Shown here in pieces: positions 19,203-64,000 of a DNA stretch of 64,000 nucleotides. The notes below the pieces were generated by a model. It was not told the DNA's origin. It did not search any database and worked only from the letters and a program-made list of their open reading frames with translations. Source of the stretch: Heliocidaris erythrogramma (lineage: Eukaryota > Echinodermata > Echinoidea > Camarodonta > Echinometridae). The translations under genes and the position numbers were made by a program. The stretch covers positions 29,140,199 to 29,204,198 of the forward strand of contig CM046864.1 in the NCBI GenBank assembly GCA_025617745.1. The letters are read 5' to 3'. Within the stretch, counting starts at the first letter, position 1, and each line of letters begins with the position of its first letter.

Positions 19203-19423
19203 ATTGAATAAGTCATAAAGAAATGTGAGAAAATTACAATGTCCCGACCGAACTATATGTGAGATTGTTACTTTGCTTCGACGGGAGCCCGGATAGCTCA
19301 GTTGGTAGAGCACTGGTCATGTTTCCAGGGTCCCGGGTTCGAATCCCGGTCGGGGCATTGTAATTTTCTCACATTTCTTTATGACTTATTCAACTTACTT
19401 CAATCCTATCAATTATGATATTT
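19203..19423. repeat. inverted repeat flanking tRNA-like copy 1
   Basis: TTGAATAAGTCATAAAGAAA followed by TGTGAGAAAATTACAATG and CCCGACCG at 19204-19250 is the near-exact inverse of 19350-19393, including the last bases of the tRNA-like module. So the left flank carries an inverted copy of the element's 3' end. Confidence 0.75.
19287..19357 (+). pseudogene. tRNA-like module (tRNA-Lys-type head), copy 1
   Basis: The D arm (GCTC/GAGC) and T arm (CCGGG TTCGAAT CCCGG) are perfect and 6 of 7 acceptor pairs form. The anticodon arm has only a 4-bp stem with an 8-nt loop (CTGG TCATGTTT CCAG), so no normal anticodon. The 5' half resembles tRNA-Lys. Best read as a tRNA pseudogene or SINE head. The right flank is ATTGTAATTTTCTCAC, with no T-run terminator. 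Confidence 0.7.
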
Positions 19424-19605: not shown

Positions 19606-19676
19606 AGCCCGGATAGCTCAGTTGGTAGAGCACTGGTCATGTATCCAGGGTCCCGGGTTCGAATCCCGGTCGGGGC
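19606..19676 (+). pseudogene. tRNA-like module, copy 2
   Basis: One substitution from copy 1 (loop TCATGTAT). It lies in a direct duplication: about 175 bp from ~19250 is repeated from ~19569, with the same flanks on both sides. Confidence 0.7.
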
Positions 19677-19837
19677 ATTGTAATTTTCTCACATTTCTTT
19701 ATGACTTATTCAATTTACTTCAATCCTATCAATTATGATATTTAATATTTAATTAATAATAATAATAATAATACCTATAGCATTTATAACGCGCTTTTCC
19801 CATAGTGGCCCAAAGCGCTCACACTTACATATATAGT

Positions 19838-29680: not shown

Positions 29681-30123
29681 AATTGAGCTACGAATGTGCC
29701 TTTTTGTGTGCATGATGTTTGGTCAAGATGTGATGATTGTGGAAAGATTCAGAAAGATCGACGAACTTGTTTAGGAGTTATCGGGGTTGGCATTTTTCAT
29801 TGTTGTGCGCGCACTGACGCGCGAACATAAGCGTACGCGCGCGTCTAATTTTCTGAAATTGACCGGATCAGTATTAGCTTTAATCCTGCCAAATATGAGT
29901 GAGAAATGACTTTCCGTTATGAAGATATGACCATGAACTAATACACGACAGGGAATCAAAATTTCCATAGAGTTGTACACAAACTACTGGAGACTACTTT
30001 CCAATAGACATAACATGCAAAATAAGGCAGTTTATTGCATGGTTTGTGATTGTGTATGTTATAATAGTCGAACAAGATCGTAAAATGAGAGGCAAAAAGA
30101 AGCAAAAAAAATTTTTTTTTAAT

Positions 30124-30190
30124 GGACGCACCGGGGATCGAACCTGGGTCACCGGAATGGGAGGCAAGTGCTTTGACCAATAGACCAAAA
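30124..30190 (-). other. tRNA-like / Pol III promoter-like module in each array unit
   Basis: On the minus strand TGGTCTATTGG (A-box-like), TTGCCTCCCATT (Gly-CCC-like anticodon region) and GGTTCGATCCC (perfect B box) occur at tRNA spacing. The 3' acceptor side (TGCGTCC) has no matching 5' strand, so it is not a functional tRNA. Copies start at 32623, 35121, 37621, 40119, 42619 and 44802. In units 5 and 6 one C of CACCGGGG is lost. Confidence 0.6.
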
Positions 30191-31867
30191 TATTTCCCAT
30201 AGAGATAACACGTAAACGAAAAGCGGGATTCTCAAATCCCATTTTGTAGTTGAAAATTGGGCATAATCCCGACATCTGTTCAAAAATTGGAGACAACACT
30301 TATGAAAGCTTATAGTCTCAGCTACAACATATCAAAATCTGGAAGGAAATAGACCCAAAATAATTGAGATACTGCCCAGAGAACGATGTCATGTAGATTC
30401 ATGAGTCGAAAAAAAATCATCTTCCATAGACATAACACGCAAATAGGGGGAATTCTGACATGGCGTCTTTAATTGAAAATTTCACTATGATGCCTTCATC
30501 AAAATGAAAAATGGTGGCAACTGATCTAGTAGAGAATGGTCTCAGCTATAACATATCAAAATTTGGAAGAAAATCGACCACCTATTACTGAAATATTATC
30601 ACATGAACACAAAAATGATGACGTCATTCTTTTCAAAATGAGAGTTTTGAGTTCATAGGCAGATACGATGACGTTAGAACATGAGATCGGCAAAAATTCT
30701 ACATGAATTCAAATCCACAACTCACAGGCTTCCAGAATATGTAGAGGAATTTGGGGGTATCCGTGCATTCTGACGAGCTATGGCGAATTCTAGATAGGCA
30801 TGTTTTTACCACTTTTTACATTAGAATGCCCATTGACGCGCCCACGTAATTGAAAATTTGACGCGCGCGTGTGGCATTATGGAAGGTCGAGAATGACTGT
30901 AAATAGTTGGAAATTGTCAACAATAGTGTCAGCAAGACAAACCATGCGAAAAAACGGCGTTTCTATTTTCCGTACGCGCTGCGCGTGCGTATAACGCGAG
31001 GACAAACGCGCACGGACGGAAAATTTTGAAATGCTCAAAATGTCCTGAACCATACTCTAATTTGATTAAAAAGTGATTTTGAACATTTTTAAATTTTGAC
31101 GCGCGCGTTACGTGCGCGTCATGATGCGTGCACGGATTTTGATGGCATTTTATGTTGACCCTTGACCTGAAGTTGATGTGTGTCAAATATGGTTCATTTT
31201 TGATGACTCGTTATGAAGATATGATTGATAATGTGATTTCACAAAATGGCGCCTGGATGACGTCACGATGACCTGATGACCTTGAAATAGATACCCGAGC
31301 TTGATCTGATAGGTCCTCATGACTGTAGAGATTTTGATGAAAATTGACTCAGCCGATATTGAGGAATCATGGTAACAAGAAAGTGGTGGAAAAATAAAAA
31401 TAAAGAAATAAAGAAAGAAAATTCTGACGAAATTAAAAGGTGATCTGTCGTTGACAGACCACCTAATAAAGCTACAACGTGTGTGTCTATGGGGGAAATG
31501 GGCAATTTTAACTTTGAAAGCCATTTTCACCCTGAAGACGCCCGTTAAAACGCTTGAGCTATACGAGCTTTTTTTGTGTAGAATTTTTTGCTCTATCATC
31601 TGAATCATGTCCCAAGTCTCTAGGACCACGCAAACTGAAGTTAGAGGTCCGAAAAGGGAATTTTTTCATCAAAAAATCACTAAATGAAGCCTAGATGACG
31701 TCATAATGTCCTAGTAAACTTCAAATTGTTACTGTGAACTCTTCTTATCAGGTCTCATGACTGTGTCGAATTTGAAAAAGATTCACTGTTTCGTTTTCGA
31801 GTTATTGCCCCCGTAAAAAAAAGGGGGGGGGGGGTCCAAGAGACACAAATGACGTTTTATAAAAAAA

Positions 31868-62890: not shown

Positions 62891-63011
62891 TTATTTATTT
62901 ATTTATTTATTTATTCATGTTTTATTTAAAATAGAGAGTAGGTACATTCAGTTAAAAAACTGCTTTACAAGCACGCCCTCTAGGACATTAATATACACAT
63001 TATTATTAACT

Positions 63012-63180
63012 GGGCGTTGTGGCGTGCGCCTGTAATCCAGCTAACAGTGGAAGTTATAAACTGATTCAGCGGACCAAGGTTCGAGACTGAGTCACGTCTT
63101 TCGGATGGTGACGTTAAAGGTCGGTCCCCAGACGTAAATAATCATATCTGATTGATACACGTCTGTAAAAACCCAATTAC
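63012..63180 (+). mobile_element. SINE with 7SL-RNA-like 5' head
   Basis: Starts GGGCGTTGTGGCGTGCGCCT, then GTAATCCAGCTA. Aligned with the 5' end of 7SL RNA (GGGCGCGGTGGCGCGTGCCT, GTAGTCCCAGCTA) this matches about 27 of 33 positions, including GTGGCG, GCCTGTA and AGCTA. A B-box-like GGTTCGAGACT lies at 63078-63088, a body (CACGTCTTTCGGATGGTGAC, GTTAAAGGTCGGTCCC) follows, and a (CA)n run ends it. Confidence 0.7.
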
Positions 63181-63200
63181 ACACACACACACACATACAA
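63181..63200. repeat. (CA)n microsatellite
   Basis: Short CA run at the 3' end of the SINE. Confidence 0.8.
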
Positions 63201-64000
63201 CAAAACAAAACAAAGCAAAAATAAACATTAACATAATTTTGTGACATCATATATAATACAAAATAACAAAGTAAACTTAACAATTAAAATGCGAAGAATA
63301 ATTACGACAGAGGAAATTATATTATAATAAATGTTTGGCCAATTGGCATCCGCGCTTAAAACAATTGATTGATTTTGTGGTTTGAATTGAAAAAGGAAGT
63401 TTGTTGAATAGGGTGCTTGCTTTGTATGAGAATGATCTTTTTTAAACTCAGTTTTAGGGAATGGGATGTCGAGAAGAGAATTTTGTGAATAGCGGGTACA
63501 AAAGTTAAAGGTACGGTGAGTAATAAGTGATTTTAGATAATTTGGGGCCATTATATTAATAATTTTGAAAACCAACAGACAGTAGTGATATTTCATTCTT
63601 TGTTCGACCGATTGCCAATTTAAGGTTGTAAGAAGGGTACATTGTGGTGTGTCATAATCCTTGTTTAAAACTAATCTTGCATATCTATTTTGTAACTTTT
63701 GTAGTTTGGATAAATTTGTCTTTGAGCAGTTTCCCCAGGCAGTGCAACAATAGTCGATATGTGGTACAATTAATGCGAAATATAAACTTACAAGAGTTTT
63801 ATGAGGTATTAAATGTTTAATGCGGCGAATACATCCAATGGTACGAGATATTTTAGTACTTATATGCTTTATATGTTCAGACCATGTCAGTTGTGAGTCA
63901 AGTATAACCCCAAGATATTTAATTGTTTCTATACACTGCAAATTATTACCATGTAATTTGATAGAGAGATGGTTGTTTTCCAGCTTTCTTTTTGATCCAA

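Follow-up and report, generated by a model that had tools for sequence, protein, structure and literature searches.

A sea urchin SINE whose head very probably derives from the animal's own 7SL RNA

Does a short repeat in the genome of the sea urchin Heliocidaris erythrogramma carry a head made of 7SL RNA, and if so, from whose 7SL RNA was it taken? The question was raised by an earlier note on this DNA, made from its letters, which placed at positions 63012 to 63180 a SINE with a 7SL-like head of about 33 bp, followed by a B box and an unrelated body. Here, the window denotes the whole stretch of 64,000 nucleotides that was analysed, C12:29140199-29204198, from a host genome of 1,064,227,859 bases in 26 contigs. 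We conclude, with a probability of about nine in ten, that the element is a copy of a young echinoderm SINE family with a head taken from the 7SL RNA of its host.

The head of the element and the 7SL RNA of the host

The SINE copy occupies positions 63008..63195 on the forward (+) strand, from its 5' end AACTGGGCG... onwards and with the whole (CA)n tail included, and shows a single mismatch over 172 nt to the consensus of a set of 43 best-scoring genomic copies described below. B box (63078-63088) and body were found as the earlier note had described them, but the element starts 3-4 bases earlier (63008/63009) and its (CA)n tail continues past 63180 to 63195. The 7SL-like head is likewise real, but longer than the proposed ~33 bp, as it represents 44 nt of 7SL.

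This head lies at 63009..63054 (+), represents the 5' domain of 7SL RNA as found in the host and includes by position a 7SL-type box A GGCGTTGTGG at 63013..63022 (+). The corresponding boxes of human (GGCGCGGTGG) and hagfish (GGCGCAGTGG) are given in PMC7245038. Further downstream follow a tRNA-type B box GGTTCGAGACT (63078..63088, +), a central motif CGTCTTTCGGATGGTGACGTTAAAG (63095..63119, +), a 3' hairpin formed by CAGACGT ... ACGTCTG (63129..63165, +) and the (CA)n microsatellite tail (63180..63195, +), whose length varies between copies; the 3' end reads ...ACACGTCTGTAAAAACCCAATTA(CA)n. The B box agrees at 9 of 11 positions with the consensus GGTTCGANTCC. In sum, the element joins the 44-nt 5' domain of 7SL to a body in which tRNA-type B box, central motif, 3' hairpin and (CA)n follow one another. 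A further copy was not found within the 64-kb window, and the head and body patterns gave 0 stretches each in viral contigs.

The SINE is located just downstream of an open frame in the opposite orientation (63228..63998, -), which encodes 256 aa and runs open off the window end. Read by eye, this frame resembles the C-terminal portion of a non-LTR reverse transcriptase; a Pfam search with four open frames of the window, this one included, found 0 families at E <= 0.001.

In an Rfam search of 301 bp, positions 63009-63054 corresponded to positions 1-44 of the family RF00017 (Metazoa_SRP) with 30.9 bits and E = 1.5e-6, a match under the gathering score of 70 in which 44 of the 299 model positions are present. 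Five families were reached at E <= 10 in this search, and none of them was tRNA or 5S. A scan of the whole window at the gathering score gave only two tRNA matches, both away from the SINE. Without gaps, 29 of 32 bases are identical between the Rfam consensus and the head, and the best local score of the 44-nt 7SL consensus was 49 at the head versus 21 elsewhere (window 1-62900).

The comparison with the species' own 7SL RNA, which the earlier note had proposed as a check, gave an even closer agreement. The host 7SL (L010) has the 5' end ACTGGGCGTTGTGGCGTGCGCCTGTAATCCAGCTACTTGGAAGTCGGGG, and the window copy equals nt 1-35 of it, letter for letter. Past nt 35, ACAG replaces the CT of 7SL in the helix-4 loop, after which TGGAAGT of the SINE equals host 7SL nt 38-44. 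The commoner C form of the head follows the host 7SL over nt 1-36 and then has CAG for the T of 7SL; the helix-4 loop of the SINE is 2 nt longer than that of the host 7SL. At nt 36 of the head, the 43 best-scoring copies divide into 35 with A and 8 with C, and the consensus of a second set, taken from chromosome 1, has C, the 7SL base. Moreover, the head has the single-C AATCCAGCTA, as does the host 7SL, and matches neither the Alu letters AATCCCAGC nor the human 7SL letters AGTCCCAGCTA. A tRNA or 5S head is refuted by this comparison together with Rfam. The earlier note had named a better fit of tRNA or 5S than of the own 7SL as the result that would speak against its claim; the outcome was the opposite, with identity over nt 1-35 and 2544 exact heads in the genome.

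Beyond nt 44, a comparison of the SINE body with the remainder of the 7SL RNA (rest of the Alu domain, 3' end) gave a best local score of 15 against a shuffle mean of 16.6 (p = 0.84). We rejected a continuation of the 7SL similarity into the B box, since 0.74 of the shuffles scored equally well (p = 0.84 against the own 7SL), and also a full Alu domain with its 3' half further down the body, for which there was no match against the own 7SL. The SINE retains neither the B box of 7SL nor a 3' Alu domain. The S domain of 7SL is deleted as well, and the SINE is not a plain 7SL retrocopy.

According to PMC8137916, the SRP Alu fold has a 5' domain that reaches up to helix H4 and contains the UGU motif that is recognised by SRP9/14. 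Judged by its letters, the SINE head is this 5' domain, with helices 2, 3 and 4 and the UGU motif. The predicted helices 3 and 4 of the head in the window copy are the same as in the own 7SL segment. Shuffled versions of the isolated head are as stable as the head itself (window copy z = -0.17, own 7SL z = -0.20); folding energy therefore proves nothing, and the argument is one of sequence identity.

From these parts, we infer how the element might work. Transcription by RNA polymerase III would begin with the first base derived from 7SL and rely on the 7SL box A together with the tRNA-type B box. The SINE RNA would fold its 5' domain and bind SRP9/14, through which it would be docked on ribosomes, and could in this way ride those ribosomes that make the LINE protein. 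The LINE reverse transcriptase may then recognise the 3' end with its hairpin and microsatellite, the hairpin being a candidate recognition structure, and start target-primed reverse transcription. The helper LINE might belong to the CR1/L2 group, a guess that we base on the CR1/L2 partners of the sea urchin SINEs tabulated in PMC3747384.

It is possible, although we consider it doubtful, that the 5' domain was retained as a promoter only and that SRP9/14 plays no part. The position of box A within the retained segment and the loss of both the B box of 7SL and the 3' half of the Alu domain would agree with such a role. However, the retained segment is the structural 5' domain to helix 4, as delimited in PMC8137916, and not box A alone, and the same paper cites that the minimal functional Alu element keeps SRP9/14 binding.

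Copy number, insertion and duplication

Using the exact 33-nt head, we found 2544 occurrences genome-wide (1238 forward + 1306 reverse), a count that takes in 7SL genes, tandem copies and duplicated segments; the reversed pattern, used as a control, gave 0 + 0. Two sets of copies were read. For the best-scoring set, a DNA search with the window copy yielded 1839 first-look candidates, of which 40 were scored and 43 matches listed (41 at 96-100% over most of the query, one at 85% and one 52-base piece). The 40 best-scoring loci were taken with their flanks and provided 43 copies. Of these 43 copies, 41 differ from the 172-nt consensus by no more than 2 mismatches, L063 has 4 and L068 has 5; L052.1, one of the 41 near-identical copies, contains a 27-nt gap.

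The chromosome-1 set comprises 40 loci with 44 copies that carry the exact head in the first 23.3 Mb, leaving out one tandem pair and one locus already in the first set. Consensus position 165 or beyond is reached by 39 of the 44 copies, with a median identity of 98.2% and a lowest identity of 80%. After four members of one tandem array had been dropped, 10 of 40 rows showed no substitution over the 124 nt past the head, gaps not being counted; in the same comparison, five rows are far off (12.7-64%) and are probably truncated or rearranged. Both sets favour young copies, as they were picked by score or by the exact head, and in the chromosome-1 set the identity over nt 3-35, that is the 33-nt head, is true by construction. 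The junction between head and body is identical in nearly all sampled copies and is interrupted in exceptional ones, among them L072 and L080. The SINE is a multi-copy, dispersed and uniform chimera, with a few sampled copies truncated or interrupted, and the family looks young. The collection of genomic copies and their consensus, which had been suggested before, thus supports the 7SL head through its 2544 exact occurrences.

In three copies (L083, L092 and L096) the SINE stops at ...GTTAAAG and is followed by unrelated sequence. In the full element this stop point is a 5' splice-site-like AAAG/GT, and TATA-like strings are present ~16-22 bp upstream of the SINE start in L096 and L083. These three copies may be spliced first exons or may have a different tail.

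RF00017 gave 23 listed matches in the host genome, 18 over the cut-off (12 on C16, 5 on C4 and 1 on C1) and 5 weak ones, two of which, L027 and L028, are SINE copies, the former truncated. The region C16:41246598-41716167 harbours 12 full-length or near full-length 7SL genes in two clusters, mostly ~2 kb apart. On the strand read, the exact 33-nt head string is carried by 11 of the 18 7SL loci.

The copies begin with (A)ACTGGGCG, and most of them have a (CA)n stretch of varying length as their 3' end. In the first set, an exact flanking repeat of at least 9 bp was found at 4 of 36 unique sites (L031, L033, L047 and L049), compared with 0.9% of mismatched pairs, and one of at least 7 bp at 7 of 36 sites versus 4.8% of mismatched pairs. 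The second set has repeats of at least 9 bp at 7 of 32 sites versus 2.0% of mismatched pairs, with one array included; this locus, L077, is a tandem array that matches its own microsatellite, and setting it aside leaves 6 of 31 sites (L087, L089, L099, L101, L102 and L104). Some copies are bordered by exact target-site duplications that measure 10-17 bp as scored. At most sites, 32 of 36 in the first set and 25 of 31 in the second, an exact duplication of at least 9 bp was not found. The window copy has no clear duplication either, but a near-match of 10/11 that is displaced by ~13 bp.

Head-to-tail arrays of the SINE were identified at C1:7720600-7721356 and C1:35967841-35969348, and part of the copy number is therefore not due to retrotransposition. 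In addition, seven copy pairs were compared, including that of the window copy (L001/L002), and their flanks are 99.4-99.7% identical. Overall, the data show retrotransposition for a subset of copies, with secondary duplication on top. One could go further and regard the element as a satellite-like unit, multiplied chiefly through tandem amplification and segmental duplication instead of retrotransposition, and the two arrays as well as the seven pairs would suit this view. We consider it improbable, since 36 unique flanking sites are present among 43 copies and since a minority of sites have exact duplications directly abutting the element on both sides, at its 5' end and at its (CA)n tail.

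Some loci show an individual arrangement. The array in L119 (C1:35967500-35969800) is head-to-tail, and some of its heads are interrupted past ...GCGCCTGTTATCA. In L094 (C1:15276190-15276990), the downstream flank contains the reverse complement of the upstream flank (GCTGCAATGTGGGC / GCCCACATTGCAGC), by eye possibly an insertion into a palindrome. L041 and L042 have unlike upstream flanks and the common downstream sequence CGTTTACATGGCTTTACTTCCGAGGAC..., for which 3' transduction or insertion beside another repeat is possible.

Relatives of the body and the origin of the head

With a pattern of the central motif that allowed up to 2 mismatches and excluded the main form, we found 24 places, 20 of which were read. 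L125 and L129 represent a diverged form with the same kind of 7SL head, in which the B-box region is a better T-arm (GTGCGGGTTCGAGCCCCG); this form is presumably older than the main form. In L129, Rfam again detected RF00017 1-44 (23.4 bits, E = 2.1e-4). A tRNA was detected by Rfam neither in L129 nor, at E <= 10, in the window copy. L136/L137 and L140/L141 are by eye an apparent tRNA-headed SINE, with CGTCC(T/C)TCGGAT(A/G)GGACGTTAAA, and this element has a close variant of the central motif of the window SINE. L132-L135 consist of the SINE body and 3' part and lie within 0.4 Mb on C2 with long shared flanks; they may have a decayed 7SL head rather than another head, and the L132 segment gave 0 Rfam matches at E <= 5. 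The body and 3' part are also present in L123 and L124, where a head is not recognisable. The other places that were read look for the most part like main-form copies that have diverged or are truncated.

For the body, it is the B box that points to a tRNA origin. The relatives suggest that an older SINE had a head of the tRNA type and that its A-box half was exchanged for 7SL sequence, probably by template switching or recombination.

The tRNA-type features could also be taken to mean that the whole element is a tRNA-derived SINE whose likeness to 7SL arose by convergence or chance. This would be in line with the tRNA-type B box, with the apparent tRNA-headed SINE that has a close variant of the central motif in the same genome and with the end of the 7SL similarity at nt 44. 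We regard it as highly improbable, as an unbroken run of bases, 35 in the window copy and 36 in the C form, agrees with the host 7SL from its first base on and is followed by another 7, and no tRNA match was obtained at E <= 10. A one-off 7SL retropseudogene fused to another repeat, for which partial retrocopies of small RNAs and 7SL/LINE-1 chimeras in mammals (PMC13174262) offer a precedent, or contamination by a mammalian Alu is hardly credible and is refuted by the copy number of 2544 exact heads and by the common head-body junction of nearly every sampled copy, and the SINE letters follow the host 7SL, not Alu.

The earlier note had itself judged contamination by a human Alu as unlikely, and rightly so: the letters are of the host 7SL type, and contamination is excluded since copies run through the assembly and the window copy lies on a 51-Mb contig. 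Of the remaining contigs, C24, with a length of 12.9 kb, is mitochondrial; its first 6 kb, which were read, contain on one strand ND2, 16S rRNA, COX1, a tRNA, ND4L, COX2, ATP6 and COX3, the protein genes being named by eye and the rRNA by a match to the Rfam bacterial LSU model. Its COX1 follows the echinoderm code, with AGA at four Ser sites, TGA at Trp sites and AAA at four sites, three of which are conserved Asn positions. The assembly has about 21 large contigs: 18 measure 37-79 Mb, C16 and C18 have matches past 35 Mb, and C14 is reckoned among the large ones by subtraction; five others measure 10-173 kb. A mitochondrial gene order of the echinoid type and a chromosome number of n = 21 point to a sea urchin as the most likely host. 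Two small contigs, C25 (L118) and C26 (L116), appear bacterial by eye and are likely assembly contamination.

The window itself contains other tRNA-like sequences. Between 30134 and 44822 (-), seven GGTTCGATCCC B boxes occur in a large tandem repeat, with five steps of ~2.5 kb and a last one of ~2.2 kb, and positions 30050-30260 look by eye like a tRNA-derived SINE head. The sequences at 19287-19357 and 19607-19677, 320 bp apart, are tRNA-like and score over the Rfam gathering cut-off, and ARAGORN assigns no anticodon to them; both are followed by a sequence whose reverse complement is by eye also present upstream of the first.

Comparison with known SINEs

SINEs with 7SL heads are classed as SINE1. 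The window SINE has such a 7SL-derived head, and target-site duplications are present at a minority of its sites. It does not keep the Alu domain on both its 5' and its 3' side, a trait that is common to the hagfish and primate members compared in PMC7245038, but is not part of the SINE1 definition there. The host-type 7SL head, the (CA)n tail and the unrelated body place the element outside the Alu/B1 lineage, and it is not a SINE2, as it has no tRNA-derived head and only its B box is of the tRNA type.

The closest parallel is the hagfish SINE1-1_EBu. As described in PMC7245038, it also resides in a non-mammal, has a 7SL head closest to that of its own host, combines it with parts of other origin and forms a young family with a microsatellite tail. 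It differs in having both 5' and 3' Alu-domain parts (~140 nt), RTE-derived parts and (AAC)n, whereas the window SINE is confined to nt 1-44 of 7SL and combines these with a B box of the tRNA type, a shared central motif and (CA)n.

Primate Alu and rodent B1 also begin at the 5' end of 7SL and keep the 5' domain. In contrast to them, the window SINE has the single-C 7SL of its host, no 3' Alu domain, no poly(A) and a non-7SL body, and it belongs to another phylum. The sea urchin families SURF1/SINE2-4c_SP, SINE2-3_SP and SINE2-8_SP are listed in PMC3747384 as tRNA-headed SINEs with CR1/L2 LINE partners; judged by their descriptions, it is the tRNA head that sets these SINE2 families apart from the 7SL head found here. 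Several central domains are conserved among SINEs, namely V, CORE, Deu, Nin, Ceph, Inv, Pln, Snail and Meta, as named in PMC8010984. A motif common to different heads, here CGTCTTTCGGATGGTGACGTTAAA, likens the window SINE by description to such central-domain families.

According to a 2024 paper, SINE1 elements are known only from primates, rodents and hagfish, and against this background the window SINE looks like an independent, minimal SINE1. The earlier note had considered that an independent origin in this lineage would be notable. The origin does look independent, but the occurrence outside mammals was already known from the hagfish SINE1-1_EBu, published in 2020 (PMC7245038). What looks new is the invertebrate host and a head cut down to the 5' domain. 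Among the titles and beginnings of abstracts of the matches listed from the open-licence literature, we recognised no report of an invertebrate SINE with a 7SL head, and three papers that matched strings of the SINE sequence were unrelated by title.

We consider it rather probable, with less confidence than for the origin of the head as such, that this is the first invertebrate 7SL-derived SINE, born independently from the 7SL RNA of its host, and the most reduced one known, with a 44-nt 5' domain that carries the SRP9/14 motif and a 7SL box A combined with a tRNA-type B box. If true, efficient spread of a SINE1 would not depend on the 3' half of the Alu domain, contrary to what had been concluded from Alu and the hagfish element. 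Since only the 5' domain has been kept, the element would isolate the useful part of 7SL, be it the promoter with box A, the fold that binds SRP9/14 or the two together. Given the youth of the family, it should be possible to find working copies, empty sites and the helper LINE, and hence the ribosome-docking model should become testable outside L1. Furthermore, an invertebrate origin would make 7SL-headed SINEs a repeatable evolutionary experiment.
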